DNA of 64,000 bases from Diplonema papillatum (taxonomy: Eukaryota; Euglenozoa; Diplonemea; Diplonemida; Diplonemidae): NCBI GenBank assembly GCA_030068145.1, contig JAPJBO010000259.1, positions 62,001-126,000 on the forward strand, read 5' to 3'. The notes under the pieces are model-generated. The model had not been told where the DNA came from, did no database searches, and saw only the letters and a program-made list of their open reading frames with translations. Made by a program: the position numbers and the translations under genes. Below, in pieces: positions 20,801 through 57,700 of this stretch (positions within the stretch are counted from its first letter, which is position 1; every line of letters begins with the position of its first letter).

Positions 20801-21631
20801 TTCAATACCGACGTGCACGGTGTTGCTCGGCCAGTTGGCGACTACCTCTTCGCGAGCTTCAGACGCTCCGACGACGAAACCACATCGACGGCGTCGAACC
20901 TGCCGGACCAGGTCGCAGTCTACCACCTTCACGACGGGGAGTACGAGCTCGAGAGCATTCTGAACGAAACCTGCCCGAACCTCCACGGTGCGGCATCCGA
21001 CAGCACGCACGTTGTGTTCGGGTGCACCGGCCACTTGTTGGTGGCGACATTGAACGCGACGAGCGGGAGCGTCACGGCCGCGAGGCTCAGCTACACGGCT
21101 GATCTTGCGGGAATGCAGATGGGATTCCTCGTGTCGCACGAGCACGCGGGGTTGTTCATCGGGTCTGCCTCTCCGCGCAGCAGCGAGGACACGTACTGGT
21201 TCGCTGTGGACGTCGAGCACATGGACATTGAGCTGATCGCCGTGACACACGTGGGCTACAGCGAGTGCGTGATGGGCTACAACGACGAGCACGCCGCAGT
21301 CCTGCACACAGACGGCAAGGTAACCGTGATGGCTGCCGAACTGCACGACGACCACTACGACTGGGAGATTCAGACGGTCGAAATCAGTGCGAGCCCTACG
21401 ACGCTGTACGCTTCTCCGTCCAACGGTGCCTACTATTTGCTCATCGCGAGCCCTGTGGACAAGGAGGTGGTTGTGTTGAACCTGCAAACGAGAGTCGTGA
21501 TGCAGCGTATGTCATTGGACTTTGTCCCGTCTCGTGTTGCATGGATGGGTATCCCGAAAGCAGCTCACCACGACGACGACCATGACGACAATGACCACGA
21601 CGAAGATGATCACGAAGACGACCACGAATAG
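17837..21631 (+). CDS. Secreted triple AztD-like beta-propeller protein, copy 1 (1264 aa)
   Basis: The start ATG gives an N-terminal signal peptide (MRLLPLVVCSLLSCSSA, cleavage before QHTIDSAG). Three homologous domains of about 390 residues follow: about 20-415, 451-840 and 853-1241, each ending in a [12 protein letters not shown] motif. Diagnostic blocks in each are NITG..P..VDVQGDQ.AIWF(D/E)[18 protein letters not shown] and [26 protein letters not shown]. These resemble, from memory, the beta-propeller zinc metallochaperone AztD of bacterial AztABCD systems (its HGVAVP and CP.LHGEA blocks). The linkers are His/Asp-rich (about residues 416-440 and 840-852), and the C-terminal tail (1242-1264) is almost only His, Asp and Glu, as in metal-binding tails. 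There is no membrane segment. Several N-glycosylation sequons (NET, NIT, NTS) fit the secretory route. Role inferred: extracellular or vacuolar zinc binding and delivery. Domains 2 and 3 are nearly identical in DNA (offset 1209 nt). Confidence 0.8.
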   Translation: MRLLPLVVCSLLSCSSAQHTIDSAGRLVISHQGVSSVSVVELDDASTLATFDTGFNVDYMVTAPGSRHALFQSSPSGIVRFVDGRLWREDHVVHLHDYKETPALTPYNITGVFPNSVDVQGDQVAIWFEGDQSVANAKAVVLKSADIVSGSVAPPTVEFNINMRGVARPVGDYLFASFRRPDSETTSTSTILPDQVAVYHLHDGEYEFEGILNETCPNLLAAASDSAHAVFACTGHLLVATLNATNGNVTAAKLSYTADLAGMQMGFLASHEHAGLFIGSASPRGSADTHWFAVDVEHMEIELIVVTRVGYSECVMGYNDEHAVIVHNDGTVTVMAAELHDGHYDWDVQTVTVTAGNAPTTATYHATPSSKAYDAFITNPVDSEVVVLNLQTRNVTQRISLGFVPSRVAWVGIPEAADHDDDHDDDHDDDHDHDDEHTPEEGHHGEGNSSGRLAISHAGAKAMSVLDLTDASILVTFNTSFEADFMITAPGSRHALFQSGTDGIVTFVDGGLWREEHDDHLDDYKRDPALTPYNITGSRPDHVDVQGDQMAIWFDGDETIPASAKVVVLTSADILSGSVSPPTVEFNTDVHGVARPVGDYLFASFRRSDDETTSTASNLPDQVAVYHLHDGEYELESILNETCPNLHGAASDSTHVVFGCTGHLLVATLNATSGSVTAARLSYTADLAGMQMGFLVSHEHAGLFIGSASPRSSEDTYWFAVDVEHMDIELIAVTHVGYSECVMGYNDEHAAVLHSDGKVTVMAAELHDDHYDWEIQTVEISASPTTLYASPSNDAYTLLIANPVDKEVVVLNLQTRTVTQRITLDFVPSRVAWVGIPEAADHDDHAAEEEHLEGRLAIAHEDAAALSVVELDDASTLVTFNTSFEADFMITAPGSRHALFQSGTDGIVTFVDGGLWREEHDDHLDDYKRDPALTPYNITGSRPDHVDVQGDQMAIWFDGDETIPASAKVVVLTSADILSGSVSPPTVEFNTDVHGVARPVGDYLFASFRRSDDETTSTASNLPDQVAVYHLHDGEYELESILNETCPNLHGAASDSTHVVFGCTGHLLVATLNATSGSVTAARLSYTADLAGMQMGFLVSHEHAGLFIGSASPRSSEDTYWFAVDVEHMDIELIAVTHVGYSECVMGYNDEHAAVLHTDGKVTVMAAELHDDHYDWEIQTVEISASPTTLYASPSNGAYYLLIASPVDKEVVVLNLQTRVVMQRMSLDFVPSRVAWMGIPKAAHHDDDHDDNDHDEDDHEDDHE

Positions 21632-24452: not shown

Positions 24453-27400
24453 ATGCGGCTGTTGCCACTAGTTGTCTGCTCTCTGCTCAGCTGCTCGTCG
24501 GCTCAGCATACCATTGACTCAGCAGGTCGCCTGGTCATCAGCCACCAAGGTGTTTCCTCCGTGTCCGTCGTGGAGTTGGATGACGCAAGCACTCTTGCGA
24601 CCTTCGACACGGGTTTTAACGTAGACTACATGGTCACGGCACCGGGATCGCGGCATGCCCTGTTCCAGAGCAGCCCATCAGGCATCGTGAGGTTCGTAGA
24701 CGGCCGTCTGTGGCGTGAAGATCACGTTGTCCACCTGCACGATTACAAAGAGACCCCTGCTCTCACGCCGTACAACATCACTGGCGTGTTCCCGAACAGT
24801 GTCGATGTCCAGGGCGACCAAGTGGCCATATGGTTCGAAGGCGATCAGTCAGTTGCCAACGCGAAGGCTGTTGTGCTGAAGTCAGCGGACATCGTGAGCG
24901 GGAGTGTCGCCCCCCCGACAGTGGAATTCAACATCAACATGCGCGGTGTTGCTCGGCCAGTTGGCGACTACCTCTTCGCGAGCTTCAGACGTCCCGACAG
25001 CGAGACCACATCGACCAGCACCATCCTGCCTGACCAGGTCGCAGTCTACCACCTTCACGACGGAGAGTACGAGTTCGAGGGCATTCTGAATGAAACCTGC
25101 CCGAACCTTTTAGCCGCGGCGTCGGACAGCGCGCACGCTGTGTTCGCGTGCACCGGCCATTTGTTGGTGGCGACATTGAACGCAACGAACGGGAACGTCA
25201 CGGCTGCGAAGCTCAGCTACACGGCTGATCTTGCGGGAATGCAGATGGGATTCCTCGCGTCGCACGAGCACGCGGGGTTGTTCATCGGGTCTGCCTCTCC
25301 GCGTGGCAGCGCGGACACGCACTGGTTCGCTGTGGACGTCGAGCACATGGAAATTGAGCTGATCGTGGTGACACGCGTTGGCTACAGCGAGTGCGTGATG
25401 GGCTACAACGACGAGCACGCAGTCATCGTCCACAACGACGGCACCGTAACCGTGATGGCTGCCGAACTGCACGACGGCCACTACGACTGGGACGTTCAGA
25501 CCGTGACAGTCACTGCGGGGAATGCGCCGACCACTGCCACATACCACGCCACTCCGTCCAGCAAAGCTTACGACGCCTTCATCACCAACCCTGTAGACTC
25601 GGAAGTGGTAGTGTTGAACCTGCAAACGAGGAACGTGACGCAGCGCATTTCGTTGGGCTTTGTCCCGTCTCGTGTTGCGTGGGTGGGTATCCCGGAGGCG
25701 GCTGACCACGACGACGACCATGACGACGACCACGATGATGACCACGACCACGACGACGAACACACCCCCGAGGAGGGCCACCACGGTGAAGGGAATTCGT
25801 CAGGTCGCCTGGCTATCAGTCATGCGGGTGCAAAGGCCATGTCCGTGCTGGATTTGACTGACGCCAGTATTCTTGTGACCTTCAACACGAGTTTCGAGGC
25901 TGACTTCATGATCACGGCACCGGGGTCGCGGCATGCTCTGTTCCAGAGCGGCACAGACGGCATCGTAACGTTCGTAGACGGCGGGCTTTGGCGCGAAGAA
26001 CACGATGACCACCTGGACGATTACAAACGGGACCCTGCACTGACGCCGTACAACATCACTGGCTCACGACCGGACCATGTCGATGTCCAGGGCGACCAAA
26101 TGGCCATATGGTTCGACGGCGACGAGACGATCCCTGCCAGTGCGAAGGTTGTGGTGCTGACGTCGGCGGACATTCTGAGCGGCAGTGTCTCCCCCCCGAC
26201 GGTCGAATTCAATACCGACGTGCACGGTGTTGCTCGGCCAGTTGGCGACTACCTCTTCGCGAGCTTCAGACGCTCCGACGACGAAACCACATCGACGGCG
26301 TCGAACCTGCCGGACCAGGTCGCAGTCTACCACCTTCACGACGGGGAGTACGAGCTCGAGAGCATTCTGAACGAAACCTGCCCGAACCTCCACGGTGCGG
26401 CATCCGACAGCACGCACGTTGTGTTCGGGTGCACCGGCCACTTGTTGGTGGCGACATTGAACGCGACGAGCGGGAGCGTCACGGCCGCGAGGCTCAGCTA
26501 CACGGCTGATCTTGCGGGAATGCAGATGGGATTCCTCGTGTCGCACGAGCACGCGGGGTTGTTCATCGGGTCTGCCTCTCCGCGCAGCAGCGAGGACACG
26601 TACTGGTTCGCTGTGGACGTCGAGCACATGGACATTGAGCTGATCGCCGTGACACACGTGGGCTACAGCGAGTGCGTGATGGGCTACAACGACGAGCACG
26701 CCGCGGTCCTGCACTCAGACGGCAAGGTAACCGTGATGGCTGCCGAACTGCACGACGACCACTATGACTGGGAGATTCAGACGGTCGAAATCAGTGCGAG
26801 CCCTACGACGCTGTACGCTTCTCCGTCCAACGATGCGTACACTTTGCTCATCGCGAACCCTGTGGACAAGGAGGTGGTTGTGTTGAACCTGCAAACGAGG
26901 ACTGTGACCCAGCGCATTACGTTGGACTTTGTCCCGTCTCGTGTTGCGTGGGTGGGCATCCCGGAAGCGGCTGACCACGACGACCACGCTGCCGAGGAAG
27001 AGCATCTTGAAGGTCGGCTGGCCATCGCTCATGAAGATGCCGCCGCTTTGTCCGTTGTGGAGTTGGATGACGCCAGTACTCTTGTGACCTTCAACACGAG
27101 TTTCGAAGCTGACTTCATGATCACGGCACCGGGGTCGCGGCATGCTCTGTTCCAGAGCGGCACAGACGGCATCGTAACGTTCGTAGACGGCGGGCTTTGG
27201 CGCGAAGAACACGATGACCACCTGGACGATTACAAACGGGACCCTGCACTGACGCCGTACAACATCACTGGCTCACGACCGGACCATGTCGATGTCCAGG
27301 GCGACCAAATGGCCATATGGTTCGACGGCGACGAGACGATCCCTGCCAGTGCGAAGGTTGTGGTGCTGACGTCGGCGGACATTCTGAGCGGCAGTGTCTC

Positions 27401-28247
27401 CCCCCCGACGGTCGAATTCAATACCGACGTGCACGGTGTTGCTCGGCCAGTTGGCGACTACCTCTTCGCGAGCTTCAGACGCTCCGACGACGAAACCACA
27501 TCGACGGCGTCGAACCTGCCGGACCAGGTCGCAGTCTACCACCTTCACGACGGGGAGTACGAGCTCGAGAGCATTCTGAACGAAACCTGCCCGAACCTCC
27601 ACGGTGCGGCATCCGACAGCACGCACGTTGTGTTCGGGTGCACCGGCCACTTGTTGGTGGCGACATTGAACGCGACGAGCGGGAGCGTCACGGCCGCGAG
27701 GCTCAGCTACACGGCTGATCTTGCGGGAATGCAGATGGGATTCCTCGTGTCGCACGAGCACGCGGGGTTGTTCATCGGGTCTGCCTCTCCGCGCAGCAGC
27801 GAGGACACGTACTGGTTCGCTGTGGACGTCGAGCACATGGACATTGAGCTGATCGCCGTGACACACGTGGGCTACAGCGAGTGCGTGATGGGCTACAACG
27901 ACGAGCACGCCGCAGTCCTGCACACAGACGGCAAGGTAACCGTGATGGCTGCCGAACTGCACGACGACCACTACGACTGGGAGATTCAGACGGTCGAAAT
28001 CAGTGCGAGCCCTACGACGCTGTACGCTTCTCCGTCCAACGGTGCCTACTATTTGCTCATCGCGAGCCCTGTGGACAAGGAGGTGGTTGTGTTGAACCTG
28101 CAAACGAGAGTCGTGATGCAGCGTATGTCATTGGACTTTGTCCCGTCTCGTGTTGCATGGATGGGTATCCCGAAAGCAGCTCACCACGACGACGACCATG
28201 ACGACAATGACCACGACGAAGATGATCACGAAGACGACCACGAATAG
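24453..28247 (+). CDS. Secreted triple AztD-like beta-propeller protein, copy 2 (1264 aa)
   Basis: The predicted protein is identical over all 1264 residues to the one at 17837-21631: the same signal peptide, three AztD-like domains, His/Asp linkers and acidic-His tail. The preceding 450 bases are also almost unchanged, so the promoter is duplicated as well and both copies should be expressed alike. Complete identity of such a long protein means a very recent duplication, ongoing gene conversion, or an assembly duplication. Dosage increase of a secreted metal-binding protein is the simplest biological reading. Confidence 0.8.
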   Translation: MRLLPLVVCSLLSCSSAQHTIDSAGRLVISHQGVSSVSVVELDDASTLATFDTGFNVDYMVTAPGSRHALFQSSPSGIVRFVDGRLWREDHVVHLHDYKETPALTPYNITGVFPNSVDVQGDQVAIWFEGDQSVANAKAVVLKSADIVSGSVAPPTVEFNINMRGVARPVGDYLFASFRRPDSETTSTSTILPDQVAVYHLHDGEYEFEGILNETCPNLLAAASDSAHAVFACTGHLLVATLNATNGNVTAAKLSYTADLAGMQMGFLASHEHAGLFIGSASPRGSADTHWFAVDVEHMEIELIVVTRVGYSECVMGYNDEHAVIVHNDGTVTVMAAELHDGHYDWDVQTVTVTAGNAPTTATYHATPSSKAYDAFITNPVDSEVVVLNLQTRNVTQRISLGFVPSRVAWVGIPEAADHDDDHDDDHDDDHDHDDEHTPEEGHHGEGNSSGRLAISHAGAKAMSVLDLTDASILVTFNTSFEADFMITAPGSRHALFQSGTDGIVTFVDGGLWREEHDDHLDDYKRDPALTPYNITGSRPDHVDVQGDQMAIWFDGDETIPASAKVVVLTSADILSGSVSPPTVEFNTDVHGVARPVGDYLFASFRRSDDETTSTASNLPDQVAVYHLHDGEYELESILNETCPNLHGAASDSTHVVFGCTGHLLVATLNATSGSVTAARLSYTADLAGMQMGFLVSHEHAGLFIGSASPRSSEDTYWFAVDVEHMDIELIAVTHVGYSECVMGYNDEHAAVLHSDGKVTVMAAELHDDHYDWEIQTVEISASPTTLYASPSNDAYTLLIANPVDKEVVVLNLQTRTVTQRITLDFVPSRVAWVGIPEAADHDDHAAEEEHLEGRLAIAHEDAAALSVVELDDASTLVTFNTSFEADFMITAPGSRHALFQSGTDGIVTFVDGGLWREEHDDHLDDYKRDPALTPYNITGSRPDHVDVQGDQMAIWFDGDETIPASAKVVVLTSADILSGSVSPPTVEFNTDVHGVARPVGDYLFASFRRSDDETTSTASNLPDQVAVYHLHDGEYELESILNETCPNLHGAASDSTHVVFGCTGHLLVATLNATSGSVTAARLSYTADLAGMQMGFLVSHEHAGLFIGSASPRSSEDTYWFAVDVEHMDIELIAVTHVGYSECVMGYNDEHAAVLHTDGKVTVMAAELHDDHYDWEIQTVEISASPTTLYASPSNGAYYLLIASPVDKEVVVLNLQTRVVMQRMSLDFVPSRVAWMGIPKAAHHDDDHDDNDHDEDDHEDDHE

Positions 28248-32656: not shown

Positions 32657-35600
32657 ATGCGGCTTTCGTTGCTCATACTAGCATGTCTATGCTGTTCTTC
32701 GAATCAATATGTGATCGACACGGCCGGCCGTGTGGCCATCAGCCACGAAGATGGTACTGATGTGACCGTTGTCGAGTTGGATGACGGCAGTACTTTTGAG
32801 AGCTTCGAGACGGGTTTTGTTGCAGACTACATGGTGACAGTACCTGGAACGGGGACCCTTCCGTCCGGTCCGCGGTACGCACTGTTTAAAAGCAGAACCG
32901 ACAACAACGTATCGTTCATTGACAGCCGCAGTCGTCGTGAAGATATTATTATAGACTGGCAAGATTATATTTTCGATCCGCTACACCTAGCGTACTCGTT
33001 CGATCTCTCACGCCCCAGCAGTGTCGTTGTTGCGAACAATAGACTTGCCGTTTGGTTCGATGGTGACACATCCGTTTCCGCCAATTCTGCTGTGATCGTC
33101 CTGCAGGAGCCAGACCTAAGAAACAAGAATCCCTCTCCACGTAAGATCGAGTTCGAACAACCCATGGGTGGTGTTGCCGTACCTGTAGGGGACTATCTGT
33201 TCGCCACGTTCAGGCGTTCCAATGAGGAGACCACATCACACGACAACACCCTGCCCGACCAGATCAGAGTCTATCACTATGAAGGAGCGTACGAATTTAA
33301 AACCGTCCTTGACGAAGCTTGCCCGGACCTCACCGGTGCTGCAGCCGACAGCACACACGCGGTCTTTGGATGCAGAGACCATGTGTTGGTTGCGACACTG
33401 AGCACTGCTGGAGAAGTCACCACCGCGAAGCTCAGCTACTCGGCTGCTCTCCAAGCTTCCGGAGCTCGCATCGAGTTCCTTGTGTTGCACACGTACACAG
33501 GGCTGTTCATCGGGTCTGCCTCTGTACCTGACAGTGCAGACACGTACTGGTACGCTGTGGATGTCGAGCAGATGACACTGGAACTTATCAGTGAGACACA
33601 CGTGCGGTACAGTAAGTGCTTGACTGGTTACAATGGTAGGCATGCCGCGATCCCTCACAATGATGGCAACCTGACCATTTTTACCGCCAATCAACACGGT
33701 GACCACTTTCACTGGCACGTTGATACCGTTGCGATCACTGAGAACGGTGCACCAGACGCCACGTTTGACGCTTCTCCGTCCAGGCGATCCTACGACTTGT
33801 ACATCAGCAACCCTGTGGACAAGCAAGTAGTTCAGGTGAACATGCGGGATATTTCCATTTCAAAGCGCGTTGCGTTGAACTTTGTCCCGTCCCATCTTGC
33901 TTGGATGGGTATCGGTCTGCCATCTGCCCATTATACTCTGAACGAGGATCACGATGCTTCCACAGAACACACACCCGTACCGACACTTTCACCGACACCA
34001 GTTCCAACACCAGTTCCAACACCAGTTCCAACACCAGTTCCGACACCAGTTCCAACACCTGCACCGACACCAGTTCCAACACCAGTTCCAACACCAGTTC
34101 CAACACCAGTACCAACACCAGTACCGACACCAGTTCCAACACCTGTACCGACACCGGTACCAACACCTGCACCGACACCAGTTCCAACACCAGTTCCAAC
34201 ACCAGTTCCAACACCAGTACCAACACCAGTACCAACACCAGTTCCAACACCAGTACCAACACCAGTTCCAACACCAGTTCCAACACCAGTACCGACACCA
34301 GTACCGACACCAGTACCAACACCAGTACCATCACCAGTACCGACACCTGCACCGACGCCTGCACCGACACCTGCACCGACGCCTGCACCGACGCCTGCAC
34401 CGACACCTGAACCGGTTGAGGACAACCTGAAAGTATGCGAAACCGACCTTGCGTGCCGCGTGGAAGGCGACGATGCTGCAACGTGCGTTGAAAACGTGTG
34501 CGAATGCAGCGCTGGTTTCGCACCCGTTGAAATTGGTGGTGTCAAGTTCAGCATTTGTGTGGGAGAAGGTCGTGAAGAAGAGGCAGTGAACGGGATCAAA
34601 ACAATGTTGCAGGTCGGAAAGTTCCGTGACGGAGTGTGTGAAGAGCTGACTGAGGAGCTGAAGCGAAAGCTTGTCCTCGCATGGGAAGCTGTCAATGGAG
34701 TGAAGGTCAAAAAGGAAATGTTCTTCTGTGGTTCCATCAACTACATTTTCACGTTCGACGCAACCCTTACCCAAGCCGCAAAAGTGGTATCGCAGAAGGG
34801 GAATTTGGTGGGGGAGATTCAGAGCGACCCAGAACTCAACGAGGTGCTTAAAGCTGACACGTTGAATACAAACACGTCGGCAACTGCGGAGTCGCAGTGC
34901 ATTCTTGCGAATGCTATTGCAACCGCCCTCGTCGAGGGTTCGTGCGTTCCGACAGCCTGCGCGGATGGGTTTCAGCTGTTGACCAGAGCTGACGGTCCTG
35001 TGTGTGCTGCATCATCGGTTACCGGCCTGTCAGGTCGCCTGACAATCAGCCACGAGAATCCTTCTTCTTCTTTGTCCGTTGTGGAACTGGCCGACTCCAG
35101 TATTCTCGCCACGTTCAACACGGGTGTTGAAACTGACGGCTTAGTCACAGCGCCCGGGTCGCGGTATGCTCTGTTCAAGAGCAGTGTTGACAAGATTGTG
35201 TCGTTCGTCGACGGCGGCCTTTGGACCGAGGACCATGTTGTGCACCTTCACGAATACAAAGAGGCCCCTGCCCTCGTGCAGTACAACATCACTGGCCCCG
35301 CACCCAACCATGTCGATGTCCAGGGCGACCAAATGGCCATATGGTTCGACGGTGATGCGTCGATCTCCGCAAACTCAAAGGTGGTTGTGCTTAAGGCATC
35401 GGACATCGAGAGCAAAAGTGCCTCACCCCCGATGGTTGAATTCGACATCAACATGCACGGCGTTGCCCGGCCAGTGGGCGACTTCCTTTTCGCGAGCTAT
35501 CGACGTTCTGACGAGGAGTCCACATCTTCTAGTCCCGTACTGCCAGACCAAGTCGCAGTATACCACTTGCACGACGGTAAATACGAGCTCGACACCATTC

Positions 35601-38041
35601 TGGACGAAACCTGCCCGAACCTCCACGGTGCGGCATCCGACAGCACGCATGTTGTGTTCGGGTGCACCGGCCACTTGTTGGTGGCGACAGTGAACACTGC
35701 AAGTGGGGAAGTCAAATCCGTGAAGCTCAGCTACACGGCTGATCTTGACGGCATGCAGATAGGATTCCTCGTGTCGCACGAGCACGCGGGGTTGTTCATC
35801 GGGTCTGCCTCTCCGCGCAGCAGCGAGGACACGCACTGGTTCGCTGTGGACGTCGAACAGATGAAAATTGAGCTGATCGCCGTGACAGACGTTGGGTACA
35901 GCGAGTGCATGATGGGCTACAACGACAAGCACGCTGTGGTCCTGCACAACGACGGGAAGGTAACCGTGATGGCTGCCGAACTGCACGGCGACCACTACGA
36001 CTGGGACGTGAAGACGGTCGAAATATCTACGGTCAGTGTACCGACTACTGCCACGTTCCACGCCACTCCGTCAGGCCAAACTGACGACGTTTTCATCAGC
36101 AACCCGGTGGACAAGGAAGTGGCTGTGCTGAACCTGCAAACATTGACCGTCACCCACCGAATTACGTTGGACTTTGTCCCGTCTCGTGTTGCGTGGGTAG
36201 GTTATCAGGAGGCGGCTGAAGAAGAAGCGACCAAGCAGCCCGACGAGGAGACACCCCCCACGGGAAGTCCGCCTGTTGGTGACAACGTGAAAAAGAACCG
36301 CCTGGCTGTCAGCGGTGCTGGTGGAGTGTCGCTGTACAACGCAGCTGACCAGACTTCCGTGCCACTCAACGTCGGCAGTAGTTCGGAGCAGCTCTTGACG
36401 TCTGGTGGGGGCAGGTACATCGTGCAGGTGGTGAACGGCTCAGCTGCGGGGGCGACGGAGGTGCGGTTTATCGACAGCGGTGTGTTGGCGGAAGGCAACG
36501 CAGACCCCTCTGAGTTGGATGGGTACACGTTTTCGGGACAGTTGTTCAACAGTGCCGTGGCGCAGCATGGCAAGCTGGTGGTGTTCTTTGGTGGCAGCAG
36601 TGGCCCATTCCCAGCAGCGTCTGTCCGTTTGCTGGAAGACTCGCATATCGGGGCACAAGCGAAAGACATGCCGAGCTACGCGTTCGACGAGGACATGACA
36701 GGTGTTGCCATCCCGCACGGTGAGTACGTCCTGGTCATTGGCAGTTCGAACAGCGCAAGCACACACCGTACAGCTGCCACGACTGAGGTGGTGGACGCAA
36801 ACACAGTCAGCTTGCTGTCCAAGAACGCTGGCGGTACATACGAGGTTTCCAGCAGGGCAACGGCGCAGTGCTCGAACATGCGGGGTGTGGGGCAGAACAG
36901 CGAGCACGTCGTGGTCGGCTGCTCCGGTGGCGTGGTGGTTGTGCACAACAAGGACGGCGTCATGACAGCATCACCGCTGTTGGCGCTGCCAGCCTCGTCG
37001 GAGGAGGTTCAGAGCGTGCACTACCATGCTTCTGGGATGTTCCTCGTGTGCGCAAGGGTCGTCGGCAGCAGTTCGTATTCGTGGTACACAGTGGATGCAG
37101 GGACACAGTCCGTCTCAAGTCTGCCTCGAATTCCGTTAGCTTCCGATGCCAGCGTCGTTGCCACCGACGTGGGGTATGCCGGGCAGCACTACATTGTGCT
37201 GGACAGCACTGGCACATTGCACACGCTCACGGCAATGCTGCACGGCGACCACTTCGACTGGGCGTCGGAGTCATTCGACCTGAACACGGCGGCGGGTGCC
37301 ACGGAGCACAGCCTTGCTGTGTCGCAGAACTCGTACGAAGTGTACGTGTCCGTGAAGAGCGCGAAGCAGGTTCTGATAGTCGACCTCAACAGCATGACAC
37401 GCACCTCAACGATCGACTTGCTGTTCGAGCCGCACGCCGTTGCTTGGACCGGCATTCCCGGCGATGCGGTGCATACAGTCAACGAAAGTGACGAGTGCAC
37501 AGGAATCACGAACGGGGAACGCTGGGGGTATACGCTCCTGTTCACCATCGTGACATCGCTTCTAGCCGGGTTGGTAATCTTCGTGGTTGTGCCCCTTGTG
37601 AAGATGCACCAGCTCACGCTTCAGCTCTTGATGGGATTCGCTGTTGGAGCTCTCCTCGGAGACGTGTTCTTCCACATCATCCCCATCATCCTTGGGGCCC
37701 ACGGGCACGGCGGTGACGATCACGAGGGTCATGATCATGCTGAAGAAGAGGGCCCGAGCCAGTGGAGGGTGAACATGATGATGACCACCGTGATGCTGAC
37801 CCTTCTGGCGTTCTACTGGATCGACTGGTTCGCCAGAGCGCTGCTCAAGGGCAAGTCTGACCACGACTTTATCAACGAGCTATTCATGAAAATGCGAAAG
37901 CTGCGAAGCGCAGCAGTGCAGAGGGAGGAGGAGGACCAAGAGGACGCAAGAGGAGGCGGGGTTGTTCATCGGGTCTGCCTCTCCGCGCAGCAGCGAGGAC
38001 ACGCACTGGTTCGCTGTGGACGTCGAACAGATGAAAATTGA
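32657..38041 (+). CDS. AztD-like/ZIP fusion protein, truncated copy (1794 aa)
   Basis: The ATG gives signal peptide [17 protein letters not shown]. Order: AztD-like domain 1 (about residues 20-435), Thr-Pro-Val/Ala linker (about 442-585, longer than in the intact copy), EGF-like Cys segment, a Cys-bounded linker domain, AztD-like domain 2, a more divergent propeller domain 3, then the first three ZIP helices with the His-rich loop [18 protein letters not shown]. After FIN the frame is lost: the intact copy has gagcctattc, here gagctattc (one C missing near 37880). The last about 55 residues are out of frame and end at 38041. The protein would lack ZIP helices 4-8, which carry the metal-binding residues, so it cannot transport. 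The break coincides with a duplicated 2.17-kb segment. It may be a pseudogene, a soluble decoy form, or an assembly error. Confidence 0.7.
33981..34410. repeat. 12-bp Thr-Pro-Val-Pro coding minisatellite, copy 1
   Basis: About 36 units related to ccaacaccagtt / ccgacacctgca, coding TPVP and TPAP. It is about 145 bp longer than the matching array in the second ZIP gene (45888-46173), showing length instability. Confidence 0.95.
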
Positions 38042-40055
38042 GCTGATCGCCGTGACAGACGTTGGGTACAGCGAGTGCATGATGGGCTACAACGACAAGC
38101 ACGCTGTGGTCCTGCACAACGACGGGAAGGTAACCGTGATGGCTGCCGAACTGCACGGCGACCACTACGACTGGGACGTGAAGACGGTCGAAATATCTAC
38201 GGTCAGTGTACCGACTACTGCCACGTTCCACGCCACTCCGTCAGGCCAAACTGACGACGTTTTCATCAGCAACCCGGTGGACAAGGAAGTGGCTGTGCTG
38301 AACCTGCAAACATTGACCGTCACCCACCGAATTACGTTGGACTTTGTCCCGTCTCGTGTTGCGTGGGTAGGTTATCAGGAGGCGGCTGAAGAAGAAGCGA
38401 CCAAGCAGCCCGACGAGGAGACACCCCCCACGGGAAGTCCGCCTGTTGGTGACAACGTGAAAAAGAACCGCCTGGCTGTCAGCGGTGCTGGTGGAGTGTC
38501 GCTGTACAACGCAGCTGACCAGACTTCCGTGCCACTCAACGTCGGCAGTAGTTCGGAGCAGCTCTTGACGTCTGGTGGGGGCAGGTACATCGTGCAGGTG
38601 GTGAACGGCTCAGCTGCGGGGGCGACGGAGGTGCGGTTTATCGACAGCGGTGTGTTGGCGGAAGGCAACGCAGACCCCTCTGAGTTGGATGGGTACACGT
38701 TTTCGGGACAGTTGTTCAACAGTGCCGTGGCGCAGCATGGCAAGCTGGTGGTGTTCTTTGGTGGCAGCAGTGGCCCATTCCCAGCAGCGTCTGTCCGTTT
38801 GCTGGAAGACTCGCATATCGGGGCACAAGCGAAAGACATGCCGAGCTACGCGTTCGACGAGGACATGACAGGTGTTGCCATCCCGCACGGTGAGTACGTC
38901 CTGGTCATTGGCAGTTCGAACAGCGCAAGCACACACCGTACAGCTGCCACGACTGAGGTGGTGGACGCAAACACAGTCAGCTTGCTGTCCAAGAACGCTG
39001 GCGGTACATACGAGGTTTCCAGCAGGGCAACGGCGCAGTGCTCGAACATGCGGGGTGTGGGGCAGAACAGCGAGCACGTCGTGGTCGGCTGCTCCGGTGG
39101 CGTGGTGGTTGTGCACAACAAGGACGGCGTCATGACAGCATCACCGCTGTTGGCGCTGCCAGCCTCGTCGGAGGAGGTTCAGAGCGTGCACTACCATGCT
39201 TCTGGGATGTTCCTCGTGTGCGCAAGGGTCGTCGGCAGCAGTTCGTATTCGTGGTACACAGTGGATGCAGGGACACAGTCCGTCTCAAGTCTGCCTCGAA
39301 TTCCGTTAGCTTCCGATGCCAGCGTCGTTGCCACCGACGTGGGGTATGCCGGGCAGCACTACATTGTGCTGGACAGCACTGGCACATTGCACACGCTCAC
39401 GGCAATGCTGCACGGCGACCACTTCGACTGGGCGTCGGAGTCATTCGACCTGAACACGGCGGCGGGTGCCACGGAGCACAGCCTTGCTGTGTCGCAGAAC
39501 TCGTACGAAGTGTACGTGTCCGTGAAGAGCGCGAAGCAGGTTCTGATAGTCGACCTCAACAGCATGACACGCACCTCAACGATCGACTTGCTGTTCGAGC
39601 CGCACGCCGTTGCTTGGACCGGCATTCCCGGCGATGCGGTGCATACAGTCAACGAAAGTGACGAGTGCACAGGAATCACGAACGGGGAACGCTGGGGGTA
39701 TACGCTCCTGTTCACCATCGTGACATCGCTTCTAGCCGGGTTGGTAATCTTCGTGGTTGTGCCCCTTGTGAAGATGCACCAGCTCACGCTTCAGCTCTTG
39801 ATGGGATTCGCTGTTGGAGCTCTCCTCGGAGACGTGTTCTTCCACATCATCCCCATCATCCTTGGGGCCCACGGGCACGGCGGTGACGATCACGAGGGTC
39901 ATGATCATGCTGAAGAAGAGGGCCCGAGCCAGTGGAGGGTGAACATGATGATGACCACCGTGATGCTGACCCTTCTGGCGTTCTACTGGATCGACTGGTT
40001 CGCCAGAGCGCTGCTCAAGGGCAAGTCTGACCACGACTTTATCAACGAGCCTATT
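35786..40055. repeat. 2.17-kb internal tandem duplication in the ZIP fusion gene
   Basis: The segment from 35786 (gcggggttgttcatcggg) to about 37885 is repeated at 37956 to about 40055, offset 2170 bases, with no differences I noticed except near the junction. The junction shows short homology (gcgggg) between the acidic-loop coding sequence and domain 2. The intact paralogue has one copy only. Confidence 0.95.
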
Positions 40056-40664
40056 CATGAAAATGCGAAAGCTGCGAAGCGCAGCAGTGGAGAGGGAGAA
40101 GAGGAGGACCAAGAGGAGCCGCAAGAAGGCGAGGAGGAGGAGGGGGACAAGAAAGAATCGTGGTTCCGGTGGCTGCCGGTTAAAGAGTTCCCTCGCATCG
40201 TGTGGGTTGTGCTGCTTGCCGATGGCGTACACAACGCGGCGGACGGGCTGGCCATTGGAGCCTCGTTCTCGAAAACTGTGAACCTCGGCATCAGCACATC
40301 AGTTGCCGTGATTTTCCACGAGATCCCCCAGGAGGTCGCTGACTTTGCGATCCTTCTCAGCTCTGGCCTCAGCCCCTTCCAAGCGGCGATGCTGAACGTT
40401 CTGTCGTCCTGCACGTCTATCGTTGCTGCTTGCATTGCTTGCGCCGTCGGCAGTTCTTCGAGCGACGCGACTGACTGGTTTCTCTGTGTAACTGTAGGGT
40501 CGTTTGTGTATTTGGGCGCCATACTCATTGTCCCGGAAATGCTGCATACTGTCACATCAGTCCGCTTCACCCAATTAGCTGTACACACTCTTGGCCTGTT
40601 CTGCGGCGGTTTGATTATGTGGGTGATTGCTATCACGGAAGAACACGACGAGTGTGGCCACTAG
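37956..40664 (+). pseudogene. 3' part of the first ZIP fusion gene, no start (about 900 codons)
   Basis: The open frame begins inside AztD-like domain 2 ([20 protein letters not shown]) with no ATG suited to a start. It then runs in frame through the rest of domain 2, domain 3 and a complete ZIP domain, including [12 protein letters not shown] and [13 protein letters not shown], to the TAG at 40664. It would join to 32657-35785 to make a full protein identical in layout to 44564-50257 if the duplicated piece were removed. As it stands it has no signal peptide or start and is a disconnected 3' half. Confidence 0.7.
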
Positions 40665-42092: not shown

Positions 42093-42429
42093 CGCCCTTG
42101 ACATTTTCCCGGTCGAAGATTGTTTTCGAGGTTTGTTGTGTTTCGGGGTCAAATGTGCCCGAAAATTGCGTTTTTGGCGGAGTTTCTCAGTATCTCGCGG
42201 TATTTGGGTCACCCCGGGAAACGGAGTCGGGCGGGGCTGAGCTTGCCATCACAGGCCTGGGGCTTCGTGGGGGCCTGGTCAACCACCTCATCACTATAGG
42301 GCACAAACCTTTCGCGACAGTGATTGGACAGTCGGGATTGCCGGGGGCGGGTCTCCATGAAGAAGAAAATTGCAAAGCAAGACCAGTCCCCTGCGCCTGC
42401 TGTCTCCGGCTGCTTCGGCAGACGACACA

Positions 42430-43100
<671 letters not shown>

Positions 43101-44563: not shown

Positions 44564-47500
44564 ATGCGGCTTTCGTTGCTCATATTAGCATGTCTATGCT
44601 GTTCTTCGAATCAATTTGAGATCGACACGGCCGGCCGTGTGGCCATCAGCCACGAAGATGGTACTGATGTGACCGTTGTGGAGTTGGATGACGGCAGTAC
44701 TCTTGAGAGCTTCGAGACGGGTTTTGTTGCAGACTACATGGTGACAGTACCTGGAACGGGGACCCTTCCGTCCGGTCCGCGGTACGCACTGTTTAAAAGC
44801 AGAACCGACAACAACGTATCGTTCATTGACAGCCGCAGCCATCGTGAAGATCATATTGTACACTGGCATGATTATATTTTCGATCCGCTACACCTAGCGT
44901 ACTCGTTCGATCTCTCACGCCCCAGCAGTGTCGTTGTTGCGAACAATAGACTTGCCGTTTGGTTCGATGGTGACACATCCGTTTCCGCCAATTCTGCTGT
45001 GATCGTCCTGCAGGAGCCAGACCTAAGAAACAAGAATCCCTCTCCACGTAAGATCGAGTTCGAACAACCCATGGGTGGTGTTGCCGTACCTGTAGGGGAC
45101 TATCTGTTCGCCACGTTCAGGCGTTCCAATGAGGAGACCACATCACACGACAACACCCTGCCCGACCAGATCAGAGTCTATCACTATGAAGGAGCGTACG
45201 AATTTAAAACCGTCCTTGACGAAGCTTGCCCGGACCTCACCGGTGCTGCAGCCGACAGCACACACGCGGTCTTTGGATGCAGAGACCATGTGTTGGTTGC
45301 GACACTGAGCACTGCTGGAGAAGTCACCACCGCGAAGCTCAGCTACTCGGCTGCTCTCCAAGCTTCCGGAGCTCGCATCGAGTTCCTTGTGTTGCACACG
45401 TACACAGGGCTGTTCATCGGGTCTGCCTCTGTACCTGACAGTGCAGACACGTACTGGTACGCTGTGGATGTCGAGCAGATGACACTGGAACTTATCAGTG
45501 AGACACACGTGCGGTACAGTAAGTGCTTGACTGGTTACAATGGTAGGCATGCCGCGATCCCTCACAATGATGGCAACCTGACCATTTTTACCGCCAATCA
45601 ACACGGTGACCACTTTCACTGGCACGTTGATACCGTTGCGATCACTGAGAACGGTGCACCAGACGCCACGTTTGACGCTTCTCCGTCCAGGCGATCCTAC
45701 GACTTGTACATCAGCAACCCTGTGGACAAGCAAGTAGTTCAGGTGAACATGCGGGATATTTCCATTTCAAAGCGCGTTGCGTTGAACTTTGTCCCGTCCC
45801 ATCTTGCTTGGATGGGTATCTCTCTGCCATCTGCCCATTATACACTGGACGAGGATCACGATGCTTCCACAGAACACACACCCGTACCGACACTTGCACC
45901 GACACCAGTTCCAACACCAGTACCAACACCAGCACCAACACCTGCACCGACACCAGTACCAACACCAGAACCAACACCAGTACCAACACCTGCACCAACA
46001 CCAGTACCAACACCTGCACCAACACCTGGACCGACACCTGCACCGACACCTGCACCGACGCCTGCACCGACGCCTGCACCGACGCCTGCACCGACGCCTG
46101 CACCGACGCCTGCACCGACACCTGCACCGACACCTGCACCGACGCCTGCACCGACGCCTGCACCGACACCTGAACCGGTTGAGGACAACCTGAAAGTATG
46201 CGAAACCGACCTTGCGTGCCGCGTGGAAGGCGACGATGCTGCAACGTGCGTTGAAAACGTGTGCGAATGCAGCGCTGGTTTCGCACCCGTTGAAATTGGT
46301 GGTGTCAAGTTCAGCATTTGTGTGGGAGAAGGTCGTGAAGAAGAGGCAGTGAACGGGATCAAAACAATGTTGCAGGTCGGAAAGTTCCGTGACGGAGTGT
46401 GTGAAGAGCTGACTGAGGAGCTGAAGCGAAAGCTTGTCCTCGCATGGGAAGCTGTCAATGGAGTGAAGGTCAAAAAGGAAATGTTCTTCTGTGGTTCCAT
46501 CAACTACATTTTCACGTTCGACGCAACCCTTACCCAAGCCGCAAAAGTGGTATCGCAGAAGGGGAATTTGGTGGGGGAGATTCAGAGCGACCCAGAACTC
46601 AACGAGGTGCTTAAAGCTGACACGTTGAATACAAACACGTCGGCAACTGCGGAGTCGCAGTGCATTCTTGCGAATGCTATTGCAACCGCCCTCGTCGAGG
46701 GTTCGTGCGTTCCGACAGCCTGCGCGGATGGGTTTCAGCTGTTGACCAGAGCTGACGGTCCTGTGTGTGCTGCATCATCGGTTACCGGCCTGTCAGGTCG
46801 CCTGACAATCAGCCACGAGAATCCTTCTTCTTCTTTGTCCGTTGTGGAACTGGCCGACTCCAGTATTCTCGCCACGTTCAACACGGGTGTTGAAACTGAC
46901 GGCTTAGTCACAGCGCCCGGGTCGCGGTATGCTCTGTTCAAGAGCAGTGTTGACAAGATTGTGTCGTTCGTCGACGGCGGCCTTTGGACCGAGGACCATG
47001 TTGTGCACCTTCACGAATACAAAGAGGCCCCTGCCCTCGTGCAGTACAACATCACTGGCCCCGCACCCAACCATGTCGATGTCCAGGGCGACCAAATGGC
47101 CATATGGTTCGACGGTGATGCGTCGATCTCCGCAAACTCAAAGGTGGTTGTGCTTAAGGCATCGGACATCGAGAGCAAAAGTGCCTCACCCCCGATGGTT
47201 GAATTCGACATCAACATGCACGGCGTTGCCCGGCCAGTGGGCGACTTCCTTTTCGCGAGCTATCGACGTTCTGACGAGGAGTCCACATCTTCTAGTCCCG
47301 TACTGCCAGACCAAGTCGCAGTATACCACTTGCACGACGGTAAATACGAGCTCGACACCATTCTGGACGAAACCTGCCCGAACCTCCACGGTGCGGCATC
47401 CGACAGCACGCATGTTGTGTTCGGGTGCACCGGCCACTTGTTGGTGGCGACAGTGAACACTGCAAGTGGGGAAGTCAAATCCGTGAAGCTCAGCTACACG

Positions 47501-50257
47501 GCTGATCTTGACGGCATGCAGATAGGATTCCTCGTGTCGCACGAGCACGCGGGGTTGTTCATCGGGTCTGCCTCTCCGCGCAGCAGCGAGGACACGCACT
47601 GGTTCGCTGTGGACGTCGAACAGATGAAAATTGAGCTGATCGCCGTGACAGACGTTGGGTACAGCGAGTGCATGATGGGCTACAACGACAAGCACGCTGT
47701 GGTCCTGCACAACGACGGGAAGGTAACCGTGATGGCTGCCGAACTGCACGGCGACCACTACGACTGGGACGTGAAGACGGTCGAAATATCTACGGTCAGT
47801 GTACCGACTACTGCCACGTTCCACGCCACTCCGTCAGGCCAAACTGACGACGTTTTCATCAGCAACCCGGTGGACAAGGAAGTGGCTGTGCTGAACCTGC
47901 AAACATTGACCGTCACCCACCGAATTACGTTGGACTTTGTCCCGTCTCGTGTTGCGTGGGTAGGTTATCAGGAGGCGGCTGAAGAAGAAGCGACCAAGCA
48001 GCCCGACGAGGAGACACCCCCCACGGGAAGTCCGCCTGTTGGTGACAACGTGAAAAAGAACCGCCTGGCTGTCAGCGGTGCTGGTGGAGTGTCGCTGTAC
48101 AACGCAGCTGACCAGACTTCCGTGCCACTCAACGTCGGCAGTAGTTCGGAGCAGCTCTTGACGTCTGGTGGGGGCAGGTACATCGTGCAGGTGGTGAACG
48201 GCTCAGCTGCGGGGGCGACGGAGGTGCGGTTTATCGACAGCGGTGTGTTGGCGGAAGGCAACGCAGACCCCTCTGAGTTGGATGGGTACACGTTTTCGGG
48301 ACAGTTGTTCAACAGTGCCGTGGCGCAGCATGGCAAGCTGGTGGTGTTCTTTGGTGGCAGCAGTGGCCCATTCCCAGCAGCGTCTGTCCGTTTGCTGGAA
48401 GACTCGCATATCGGGGCACAAGCGAAAGACATGCCGAGCTACGCGTTCGACGAGGACATGACAGGTGTTGCCATCCCGCACGGTGAGTACGTCCTGGTCA
48501 TTGGCAGTTCGAACAGCGCAAGCACACACCGTACAGCTGCCACGACTGAGGTGGTGGACGCAAACACAGTCAGCTTGCTGTCCAAGAACGCTGGCGGTAC
48601 ATACGAGGTTTCCAGCAGGGCAACGGCGCAGTGCTCGAACATGCGGGGTGTGGGGCAGAACAGCGAGCACGTCGTGGTCGGCTGCTCCGGTGGCGTGGTG
48701 GTTGTGCACAACAAGGACGGCGTCATGACAGCATCACCGCTGTTGGCGCTGCCAGCCTCGTCGGAGGAGGTTCAGAGCGTGCACTACCATGCTTCTGGGA
48801 TGTTCCTCGTGTGCGCAAGGGTCGTCGGCAGCAGTTCGTATTCGTGGTACACAGTGGATGCAGGGACACAGTCCGTCTCAAGTCTGCCTCGAATTCCGTT
48901 AGCTTCCGATGCCAGCGTCGTTGCCACCGACGTGGGGTATGCCGGGCAGCACTACATTGTGCTGGACAGCACTGGCACATTGCACACGCTCACGGCAATG
49001 CTGCACGGCGACCACTTCGACTGGGCGTCGGAGTCATTCGACCTGAACACGGCGGCGGGTGCCACGGAGCACAGCCTTGCTGTGTCGCAGAACTCGTACG
49101 AAGTGTACGTGTCCGTGAAGAGCGCGAAGCAGGTTCTGATAGTCGACCTCAACAGCATGACACGCACCTCAACGATCGACTTGCTGTTCGAGCCGCACGC
49201 CGTTGCTTGGACCGGCATTCCCGGCGATGCGGTGCATACAGTCAACGAAAGTGACGAGTGCACAGGAATCACGAACGGGGAACGCTGGGGGTATACGCTC
49301 CTGTTCACCATCGTGACATCGCTTCTAGCCGGGTTGGTAATCTTCGTGGTTGTGCCCCTTGTGAAGATGCACCAGCTCACGCTTCAGCTCTTGATGGGAT
49401 TCGCTGTTGGAGCTCTCCTCGGAGACGTGTTCTTCCACATCATCCCCATCATCCTTGGGGCCCACGGGCACGGCGGTGACGATCACGAGGGTCATGATCA
49501 TGCTGAAGAAGAGGGCCCGAGCCAGTGGAGGGTGAACATGATGATGACCACCGTGATGCTGACCCTTCTGGCGTTCTACTGGATCGACTGGTTCGCCAGA
49601 GCGCTGCTCAAGGGCAAGTCTGACCACGACTTTATCAACGAGCCTATTCATGAAAATGCGAAAGCTGCGAAGCGCAGCAGTGGAGAGGGAGAAGAGGAGG
49701 ACCAAGAGGAGCCGCAAGAAGGCGAGGAGGAGGAGGGGGACAAGAAAGAATCGTGGTTCCGGTGGCTGCCGGTTAAAGAGTTCCCTCGCATCGTGTGGGT
49801 TGTGCTGCTTGCCGATGGCGTACACAACGCGGCGGACGGGCTGGCCATTGGAGCCTCGTTCTCGAAAACTGTGAACCTCGGCATCAGCACATCAGTTGCC
49901 GTGATTTTCCACGAGATCCCCCAGGAGGTCGCTGACTTTGCGATCCTTCTCAGCTCTGGCCTCAGCCCCTTCCAAGCGGCGATGCTGAACGTTCTGTCGT
50001 CCTGCACGTCTATCGTTGCTGCTTGCATTGCTTGCGCCGTCGGCAGTTCTTCGAGCGACGCGACTGACTGGTTTCTCTGTGTAACTGTAGGGTCGTTTGT
50101 GTATTTGGGCGCCATACTCATTGTCCCGGAAATGCTGCATACTGTCACATCAGTCCGCTTCACCCAATTAGCTGTACACACTCTTGGCCTGTTCTGCGGC
50201 GGTTTGATTATGTGGGTGATTGCTATCACGGAAGAACACGACGAGTGTGGCCACTAG
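44564..50257 (+). CDS. AztD-like propellers fused to a ZIP metal transporter, intact copy (1897 aa)
   Basis: The ATG at 44564 is chosen over the in-frame ATG at 44492 because it begins the signal peptide [17 protein letters not shown] and matches the paralogue's start. Layout by residue: AztD-like domain 1, 20-432; Thr-Pro linker, 439-537; EGF-like [23 protein letters not shown], 546-574; Cys-bounded linker, to 742; AztD-like domain 2, 743-1138; divergent propeller domain 3, 1165-1556; ZIP, 1577-1897. The ZIP part has eight hydrophobic helices, a His-rich loop after helix 2, an acidic loop after helix 3, helix 4 [15 protein letters not shown] and helix 5 [13 protein letters not shown]. ZIPs of the LIV-1 group import Zn/Fe/Mn into the cytosol; their usual helix-5 motif is HEXPHEXGD, so here the second His is Gln and Gly is Ala. 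The propellers would face outside and could capture zinc for import (inference). Confidence 0.85.
45888..46173. repeat. 12-bp Thr-Pro coding minisatellite, copy 2
   Basis: About 24 units, mostly TPAP, coding the linker between propeller 1 and the EGF-like module. Shorter and more TPAP-rich than the copy at 33981-34410. Confidence 0.95.
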
Positions 50258-54130: not shown

Positions 54131-55059
54131 CACTCGGTGGCCCTAGCGGGCCCCCTCGTGAATCCCGAACCTTTGAAAGAAGGCGGCCGTCTTGTCCAGG
54201 AAAGGGGGCCTCTCATCTATGGGAGGCCCGACTCGAGCAAGAAGAAGTTGAAACCATTCAAATTGAAACGACAAAAAAGGTAATAAAAACAACTGGAAGA
54301 ACATGACACCAAAATAAAAGATGGCGGGATGACGAGGTTCAATGCCGGTTGTTTTGGCCAGCCATTTTTGGGTTCGCCATTTCCGATTCCGATTTCCGTC
54401 AGCATTGTGGTTGGCTGCTGCGTCCCGGCTCGGTATCCTGGTTGCGCACTGGGTCATTGACACCGCAGACTACGGGAAAACGGTTTTCTAAACACAGATT
54501 CGTGCATAATTCAGGTATGCGCGAGTGACCAGCCCGTTCTACTTGTACCGGAAACAATGAAGTATGCCATTTTTTTTGCGATTAAGTGAACAAGTGCAGA
54601 GAGCGGTGTGCGTGCTCAAATTGATGATGGTTTTGACCGATGCATCTGAAGAAACCCTCACAGGAATTCGAAGTACAGACGAACGACGTTCTTTCGAAGA
54701 TCGGAACTTCTTCCCCATTTCGACATCAGGGGCGCTCATCGCATTGTTGAGAGCTCCTTTGGCAAGGTGGCCCTGTGAACTGCAGGAAACTCTTCAAAGG
54801 GATCAAGAGTCACACAAAGGATATTCCTCATCATCCTCCGCTTCGAAGTCCAGACGATGGCTCATTGCTTGTTTTTGACATGAGGGACAAAAATCTGACC
54901 TGCACCTCCTCGTGGTGTTCCTCGGAAACGCGCTGCAAGCGCGGCCGACGCAGGCAGTCTTTGTTGTTTATCCAACTGTCTTTGCCTGATGATTGATCAG
55001 GATTCTTTGACAGGTTTGGACAGTTTCCTGTTCAGCCAAACGATACCATTCACGTGTCA

Positions 55060-56570: not shown

Positions 56571-56589
56571 TATCGAGCCGTAGCGTGAT

Positions 56590-57700
56590 GAGCAGCAGAC
56601 AGGAGGAGCAGCAGCTAGAAGATAAAACAGCTAGAGGGGCAGCAGATAGAGGAGGAGCAGCAAGAGGAAGAAGCAAGAGGAGCAGCAGCTAGATGATAGA
56701 ACTGCTAGAAGGGCAGCAGGTAGAGGAGCAGAAGCAGGAGGAAGAGCTACAGCAAGAGGGGGAGAAGGAAGACGAGCCGGAGCAAGATGAGCAGCAGCTC
56801 GAGGAGCAGCAGCAAGAGGAAAGAAGCAAGATGAGCAGCAGCTAGAGGCAAGAAAGGAGCAGCTAGAGGAGCAGCAGATGGAGGAGCAGAAGCAGAGGAA
56901 AAGCTACAGCAAGAGGGGAAGAAGGAAGATGAGCAGGAACAAGATGAGCAGCAGCTCGAGGAGCAGCAGCAAGAGGAAAGAAGCAAGATGAGCAGCAGCT
57001 AGAGGATAGAACAGCTAGAGGGGCAGCAGATAGAGGAGCAGAAGCAGGAGGAAGAGCTGCAGCAAAAAGAGAGAAAGAAGTAAGATGAGCAGCAGCTAGA
57101 GGATAGAACAGCTAGAGGGGCAGCAGATAGAGGAGCAGAAGCAGGAGGAAGAGCTACAGCAAGAGGGAAGAAGGAAGATGAGCAGCAGCAAGATGAGGAG
57201 CAGCTCGAGGAGCAGCAAAGAGGGAAGAAGCAAGATGAGTAGCAGCTAGAGGAGCAGCAGCTAGGATAAAACAGCTAGAGGGGCAACAGAAAGAGGAGCA
57301 GAAGCAGGAGGAAGAGCTGCAGCAAGAGAGAAAGAAGCAAGATGAGCAGCAGCTAGAGGATAGAACAGCTAGAGGGGCAGCAGATAGAGGAGCAGAAGCA
57401 GGAGGAAGAGCTACAGCAAGAGGGAAGAAGGAAGATGAGCAGCAGCTCGAGGAGCAGCAGCAAGAAGGAAGCAAGATGAGCAACCACTGGAGGCAAGACA
57501 GGAGCAGCTAGAGGAGCAGCAGCTAGAGGAGCCGCAAAGAGGGACGAAGCAAGATGAGTGCAGCTGGAGGAGCAGCAGCTAGAGGGGCAGCAGATAGAGG
57601 AGCAGCAGCAGCTGCATCAACAGGGGAATAAGCAAGATGAGCATCAGCTAGGAGGGGCAGCCAGGGTAACAGCTGGCAGCAGCAGGGGCAGCAGATAGAG
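56590..57700. repeat. GA/CAG-rich degenerate repeat, left arm
   Basis: Repeating blocks such as gcagcagctagaggagcag and gaggaagagctacagcaag, close to a 9- or 12-base period. Some frames read Glu/Gln-rich but are broken by stops. Confidence 0.8.

Follow-up and report, generated by a model that had tools for sequence, protein, structure and literature searches.

Bacterial AztD, known from Paracoccus (PdAztD) and Citrobacter (CkAztD), is a single-domain protein serving AztC, the binding protein of an ATP-binding cassette (ABC) system, and excerpts of its published description (PMC6689063) give an eight-bladed beta-propeller with a site 1 made of His124, His167 and His218, a zinc-transferring site 2 made of His99, His102, Asp104 and His408, and a disulfide Cys214-Cys231. 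Here we report relatives of this structurally understood zinc chaperone that are wired to a ZIP transporter, which extends AztD-type chaperones to a eukaryote. The window that was analysed covers 64,000 nucleotides of the marine, unicellular diplonemid Diplonema papillatum (contig JAPJBO010000259.1, positions 62,001 to 126,000, forward strand), and the gene in question, termed Z, encodes three tandem AztD-like domains fused to a ZIP domain; a second fusion with five such domains, termed F, lies on another contig, and soluble triple-propeller proteins, termed S, are encoded in the same cluster as Z. Like AztD, the diplonemid proteins have the homologous domain with its Cys pair, in several domains the site-1 triad and the site-2 hairpin, a signal-like N terminus and His-rich tails; unlike AztD, Z and F carry three or five domains in tandem on a ZIP in a eukaryote, and the equivalent of position 104 is mostly His. 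With a probability of roughly 0.6, judged from sequence, Z is a metal importer of the ZIP family whose outer part consists of beta-propellers that are related to AztD and came from bacteria, and its role would be zinc capture and import.

Already known are ectodomain ZIPs of the LIV-1 type, secreted binders that are linked to a ZIP, as in Pra1-Zrt1, and ABC binding proteins to which a zinc-recruiting part is fused. The LIV-1 ZIPs (human ZIP4, ZIP6, ZIP10) resemble Z in their large N-terminal outer domain and in a His-rich loop between transmembrane segments 2 and 3 (TM2-TM3), but their ectodomain is not a propeller: that of ZIP4 is described in sections of PMC4915132 as two subdomains with a PAL motif, and that of ZIP5, ZIP6 and ZIP10 is prion-related. 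LIV-1 motifs listed in parts of PMC9861476 are HxxP in TM2, DGLA in TM4 and HEXPHEXGD in TM5; the first is shared (HIIP in Z, HIMP in F), as is the second (DGLS in F), whereas TM5 reads HEIPQEVAD in Z and HEIPQEVSD in F. The three-Cys N-terminal LIV-1 motif CPALLY was not found in Z when the sequence was read by eye, and an APALVQY in its second propeller sits inside that domain and lacks the cysteines of CPALLY. A further parallel is AdcA, a zinc lipoprotein of Gram-positive bacteria (PMC7858048). It has two domains, and like Z it joins one that recruits zinc to part of an uptake machinery; unlike in Z, the fusion partner is an ABC solute-binding protein and not the permease, and the folds differ from those of Z. 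The fungal zincophore Pra1 and the ZIP Zrt1 are comparable in that a secreted zinc binder is genetically linked to a transporter and docks on it (parts of PMC3386192). No AztD-type chaperone fused to a ZIP in a eukaryote was described in the titles and abstract openings of the literature searched. Z makes it possible to test how a ZIP acquires zinc when the metal is very scarce and whether an ectodomain supplies the pore, because ligands, tether and transporter lie in one chain that can be cut or mutated.

The frame of Z is uninterrupted across 1897 codons, and three homologous domains of about 390 residues, namely A (about residues 20-422), B (743-1137) and C (1163-1554), lie N-terminal to one ZIP domain, which bears out the single chain of propeller-type domains with a C-terminal ZIP proposed in a first-pass annotation. 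Domains A and B are 51% identical, compared with 26% for C and A and 27% for C and B. The signal peptide proposed at the same time stands insofar as the N terminus is signal-like when judged by eye only. The features of Z are the following.

44564..50257, + strand: fusion gene Z, three AztD-like domains and a ZIP, 1897 amino acids (open reading frame, Pfam, NCBIfam)
44564..44617, + strand: signal-peptide-like N terminus, judged by eye from the sequence
44621..45829, + strand: propeller A (Z_A), site 2 present (H, H, H), site-1 triad absent (S, G, T); NCBIfam AztD 4.5e-13, ligand alignment
45872..46183, + strand: Pro/Thr-rich PTPAPT linker, from the sequence
46196..46291, + strand: weak Cys-rich stretch like an EB module (Pfam EB 0.0032, below cut-off)
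46790..47974, + strand: propeller B (Z_B), complete at site 1 (triad) and at site 2 (H, H, H); NCBIfam AztD 1e-18, AlphaFold2 model, ligand alignment
46997..47014, + strand: site-2 hairpin of Z_B (H-x-x-H-x-H), from the alignment
47072..47389, + strand: span that includes the three site-1 His of Z_B, at domain positions 95, 144 and 200, from the alignment
48050..49225, + strand: propeller C (Z_C), membrane-proximal, without both AztD zinc sites, Cys pair kept; NCBIfam AztD 3.1e-11, ligand alignment
49271..50254, + strand: ZIP transporter domain; Pfam Zip match, 61% identity to the ZIP domain of F
49460..49513, + strand: His-rich TM2-TM3 loop, from the sequence; predicted from ZIP topology to lie outside
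49823..49927, + strand: HNAADG motif of TM4 and HEIPQE motif of TM5, from the sequence

On the propeller domains of Z no Pfam family exceeded its cut-off. The NCBIfam AztD model (NF038015) matched whole Z in three stretches with 4.6e-38 (130.9 bits) and S with 1.6e-45 (155.4 bits), the single domains of Z giving the values listed above; none of these scores reaches the curated cut-off of 400 bits, which makes the domains of Z and S distant relatives and not AztD in NCBI's sense. Searched against solved structures up to an E value of 10, S matched only two distinct sequences, 6cmk/6n01 ('AztD protein', 9.1e-20) and 6ck1 ('A1B2F4 protein', 5.8e-9), the latter of which we take to be PdAztD. For whole Z, the AztD match (5e-12) ranked below two matches to the Pro-rich linker and above bacterial ZIP structures. 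An hhalign comparison of a 37-sequence profile with Klebsiella AztD covered 365 columns with a probability of 99.6% and 23% identity. A merely generic propeller similarity was rejected, as PQQ_ABC_repeats (5.3e-8) and YncE (0.037) matched Z far more poorly than AztD did. Profile searches thus place the repeated domain with AztD, as had been proposed for it, and not with an unrelated propeller family. An AlphaFold2 model of Z_B (predicted local distance difference test score, pLDDT, 94.7; predicted template-modelling score, pTM, 0.92) contains 34 strands and one short helix and, from secondary structure alone, fits a propeller.

Zinc-ligand positions were mapped by motif on Klebsiella AztD and in an alignment of 11 eukaryotic domains (three in Z, three in S, and d1 to d5 in F) with 6 prokaryotic proteins. 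The Cys pair equivalent to Cys214-Cys231 is present in all 11. The site-1 His triad is complete in seven (S_B, S_C, Z_B, F d1-d4) and wholly absent from the other four (S_A, Z_A, Z_C, F d5), no domain being mixed; this all-or-none pattern in 11/11 domains arose in 2 of 100000 column shuffles, a comparison that ignores relatedness. Both site-2 His residues are kept in seven domains and absent from Z_C and from F d2, d3 and d5, and position 104 of the seven is Asp in two (S_B, S_C) and His in five. His-rich tails come after the S domains. The ligand positions therefore appear, from the alignment, to behave as functional sites that are kept or lost as sets. The three domains of Z differ accordingly in equipment, B having both sites, A only site 2, and C, which adjoins the ZIP, neither. 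Separately, towards the C terminus of the domain an H-x-x-H-x-x-W motif (47744-47767 in Z_B) recurs in 9 of the 11 domains, including Z_C and F d5, and is perhaps a third metal site.

The site pattern also bears on whether the propellers form a structural or regulatory ectodomain, with a part in dimerisation, trafficking or zinc sensing as in ZIP4 and no feeding of zinc to the pore. The propeller next to the ZIP lacks the AztD zinc site in both fusions (Z_C and F d5), as such a role would allow, and deletion of the human ZIP4 ectodomain lowered Vmax without a significant change in Km, according to sections of PMC4915132. The retention of the whole His triad as a set in 7 of the 11 domains, a bacterial sister group in zinc-uptake-like neighbourhoods and the existence of S with the same sites make this explanation, in our judgement, unlikely.

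In the C-terminal part of Z, Pfam Zip (PF02535) matched residues 1577-1887 with an E value of 2.2e-47 (162.3 bits; cut-off 35.1), and the ZIP domain of F scored 177.5 bits. The His-rich loop starts at about residue 1633 after TM2, HNAADG at 1754 and HEIPQE at 1783. Regarding the eight helices ascribed to this part, one hydropathy scale gave eight hydrophobic segments for Z and, at the same threshold, six for F, while another scale gave seven partly merged segments for Z; the count of eight leans mainly on the near full-length Pfam match, since F yields only six, whereas the loop and the motifs hold as first described. The first-pass annotation had also presented ZIPs as eukaryotic importers, which the controls of the ZIP genome scan contradict, as the family is not restricted to eukaryotes.

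Throughout the assembly searched (271 Mb, 2910 contigs), all 15 AztD matches fell into two contigs, that of the window (C259) and C297. The latter carries F (L001:231-7529), in which five AztD-like domains and a ZIP are encoded in one frame of 2432 amino acids. Identity between Z and F continues across the join of propeller and ZIP, with 50% in Z residues 1511-1560 and 60% in 1561-1610, and in the phylogenetic tree described below Z_C and F d5 are a sister pair (100/100), so that the join is older than the split of Z and F. Ratios of nonsynonymous to synonymous substitution rates (dN/dS), calculated with our own Nei-Gojobori script, were 0.22 for the two ZIP domains and 0.50 for propeller C versus d5, values that are only rough because dS was above 1.2; for Z_B, ratios of 0.34 versus S_A and 0.37 versus S_B were obtained. 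Purifying selection acts on both sides of the join. As the same join recurs in a diverged second gene, the fusion in Z is not due to chance, and the earlier view of propeller and ZIP as one gene is supported by this independent paralog. In the 3' direction from F, a frame at L001:8539-9900 shows, by eye, Cys-rich repeats and a thaumatin-like domain.

An artefact, be it the merging of two adjacent genes, contamination with bacterial DNA or an assembly chimera, would find some room in the copies of the window, which are identical over long stretches, one of them broken, so that the local assembly could be imperfect. The diverged one-frame fusion F on another contig, in which identity to Z does not stop at the join, the presence of a eukaryotic NSF gene on the contig of Z, and selection on both sides of the join oppose it, and we consider such an artefact extremely improbable; separate genes and contamination were rejected on genomic sequence by F, the NSF gene and the identity through the join.

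When plasmid sequences were searched with domain S_C by tblastn, Catenovulum adriaticum came first (32% over 98% of the domain, 6e-62), followed by three Pseudoalteromonas, well above Klebsiella and rhizobial AztD. A scan of prokaryotes, with one genome per species and one peptide pattern from 5 eukaryotic and 3 marine bacterial sequences, led from 86 candidate stretches to 58 confirmed loci, all gammaproteobacterial by title and mostly Alteromonadales; the pattern favours the marine group because the alignment included three of its sequences. These relatives (Catenovulum, Pseudoalteromonas and Thalassotalea; L004, L008, L009 and L011-L068) are the closest found. Each is a single, free-standing domain that looks lipoprotein-like by eye, in contrast to the tandem fusions, but they have ligands in common with the eukaryotic domains, including His at position 104: after near-identical loci and one with a misplaced start had been left out, 31 of the 58 loci were kept for counting, and each of these had a complete site-1 triad as well as the two site-2 His; their position 104 is His in 28 cases and Asp in the other 3. 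In a midpoint-rooted tree of 48 sequences, the 11 eukaryotic domains formed one clade (98/96) that joined the marine bacteria, represented by 33 rows (100/99), while classical AztD and the Thermus and Haloterrigena sequences stood apart; the position of the eukaryotic clade among the marine rows is not settled by this tree. The BLAST set of the AztD paper, as far as excerpts of it (PMC6689063) indicate, comprised 577 sequences from bacterial taxa.

The surroundings of the marine genes point to a particular role. A large gene on the same strand, encoding a TonB receptor, lies directly upstream of the AztD-like gene in 42 of 61 bacterial loci, and for the two of these 42 receptors that were scanned ZnuD was the top NCBIfam model, with E values of 1.3e-110 (371 bits) and 3.1e-101 (340 bits) and a cut-off of 950 bits. 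Within four frames, the 61 loci contain a MerC-family gene in 34 cases, a Zur-like regulator in 17, ZrgA in 14 and a COG0523-type GTPase in 5; one representative of each was scanned, and these pass the Pfam cut-offs for MerC, FUR, ZrgA and cobW. Loci of the Pseudoalteromonas luteoviolacea type have different neighbours. Sites resembling a Zur box, defined by a consensus with at most 6 mismatches of 22, occur upstream of 38 of the 42 receptors, as compared with 10 of 840 two-base-block shuffles. Because of these neighbours and sites, the bacterial group seems to belong to zinc uptake, with TonB receptors and not AztABC as its partners. The idea of an AztD-like capture module in Z consequently stands as far as homology goes, with scores under the AztD cut-off and nearest relatives beside ZnuD-like TonB receptors; no genetic link to aztABC was found, the cluster of Z and S being eukaryotic and the closest bacterial relatives mostly lying behind ZnuD-like receptors.

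The same neighbourhoods speak to the metal involved. The ZIP family carries several metals, and the MerC-family neighbour in 34 of the 61 loci would suit a system for iron, manganese or cobalt, or for metal detoxification. The ZnuD-like, Zur-like, ZrgA and COG0523 neighbours, the Zur-box-like sites and the His/Asp sites as in AztD all argue for zinc instead, and another metal seems rather improbable to us.

Two of the marine proteins (L004:5830-7245 and L008:4851-6206) are annotated as '5-methyltetrahydrofolate--homocysteine methyltransferase' despite AztD profile matches and zinc ligands; this name looks wrong because of the match and ligands in both and, at L004, also because of a ZnuD-like neighbour and a Zur-box-like site. 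On a Haloterrigena plasmid (L005:4824-6215), a haloarchaeal AztD-like protein with site 1 and site-2 His is encoded some 4 kb away from a ZIP gene, and the two may be an archaeal pair without fusion. Three scans of viral contigs with patterns from the proteins described here yielded no relative, and a viral origin is therefore not supported.

The best reading of these data, as far as sequences allow, is that a module for zinc capture was transferred and became part of a ZIP, accompanied by a separate secreted form; in Z, the bacterial module looks as if it had been plumbed anew into another class of transporter, and a single chain would both capture and import zinc. We place at about even odds a fuller version, in which a zinc metallochaperone of marine bacteria entered the diplonemid, was duplicated there, became attached in tandem to a eukaryotic ZIP and is secreted as well, in the shape of a triple propeller, giving a two-part scavenging system (a diffusible carrier and a tethered capture-and-import transporter) with graded zinc sites along the chain. 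On the best reading, Z would reside in the plasma or food-vacuole membrane with its propellers outside or luminal, propeller B binding zinc in a central His3 site and in an exchangeable hairpin, and A on the hairpin only. Zinc would leave the site-2 hairpins, move along the His-rich TM2-TM3 loop and enter the ZIP pore, the metal-free propeller C acting as a collar that keeps the capture modules over the pore. Soluble S might be a diffusible secreted carrier that gives zinc to the fusion, and tethering by fusion might replace the docking of AztD on AztC, which kinetic data suggest to be rate-limiting in bacteria.

As to place, ZIP7 and ZIP13 recover zinc at internal membranes. A fusion on an internal membrane, its luminal propellers recovering zinc from a food vacuole or the secretory lumen, would overlap with the capture-and-import reading and differ from it in place only; the signal-like N terminus fits either location, and D. 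papillatum is suggested to be predatory in parts of its genome paper (PMC10161547), but S copies that are secreted would fit the outside better, and we regard a purely internal site as doubtful.

Several observations weigh against a transferred zinc-capture module on a ZIP. The scores of Z (130.9 bits) and S (155.4 bits) remain under the 400-bit AztD cut-off, and the families found beside the bacterial genes do not reach their NCBIfam cut-offs either. Long branches and skewed composition were flagged in several rows of the 48-sequence tree. Position 104 is mostly His (5 of 7 domains) and not the Asp of classical AztD; within Z, two of three propellers lack site 1 and one of them lacks both sites. 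The broken copy of Z shows no constraint, as 12 of the changes that separate its A part from that of intact Z are nonsynonymous and 4 are synonymous (dN/dS 0.92). Finally, Z need not be the main importer because the organism also has ordinary ZIPs: the genome contains at least 17 ZIP matches (77 of 1034 candidates scored), and those other than Z, its broken copy and F are all in open frames of at most 580 codons.

Further genes of the window are listed here.

12467-14257: NSF/Sec18 AAA ATPase gene (match 1.4e-105)
17837..21631, + strand: soluble triple AztD-like protein S, 1264 amino acids (NCBIfam AztD 1.6e-45; PDB AztD 9.1e-20)
24453..28247, + strand: second S gene with identical protein, in a 6.7-kb repeat (99.4% identical)
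32657..38041, + strand: second copy of Z, broken by a frame shift between TM3 and TM4 and by the internal duplication of 2.2 kb, from sequence comparison
37962..40664, + strand: tail of the broken Z copy (part of B, C and ZIP), from sequence comparison

S has a signal-like N terminus (by eye) and His/Asp-rich linkers between its three AztD-like domains, and no transmembrane segment was found in it by hydropathy. Both S genes are carried by a tandem 6.7-kb duplication (window 17367-30721; 99.4%). Broken and intact Z show zero differences over 2.4 and 2.7 kb, an identity (broken copy, 32657-40664) that may reflect recent gene conversion or an assembly fault.

The eukaryotic host proposed at the outset is confirmed by the NSF/Sec18 gene on the same contig and by spliced-leader and 5S/U2 repeats. 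The NSF match starts at Sec18 residue 236, the N-terminal part lying outside the frame. A query that we take to be the diplonemid spliced leader occurs 640 times in the assembly (339 + 301, with up to 2 mismatches), compared with 0 for a reversed control. Genes for 5S rRNA and U2 adjoin in the three loci examined, with the spliced leader in the same repeat at the one locus searched, and Rfam gave no match on three dispersed spliced-leader loci. A photosynthetic alga as host was rejected, as there was no match to a light-harvesting family. The genome paper of D. papillatum (PMC10161547), in the parts consulted, calls the SL-5S-U2 unit exceptional, gives a genome of about 280 Mb and reports at least 96 genes from bacteria; the words 'zinc' and 'ZIP' do not occur in its main text. 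The spliced-leader and 5S-U2-SL repeats of the assembly thus indicate D. papillatum as the host. Elsewhere in the window, collagen-like or FAG/SQA frames arise from a trinucleotide array of great length and from an extended degenerate repeat (42400-43100 and 14333-16271), and a large inverted repeat with trinucleotide arrays (54133-63831) consists of pieces of 0.2-1.8 kb at 86-99% identity.

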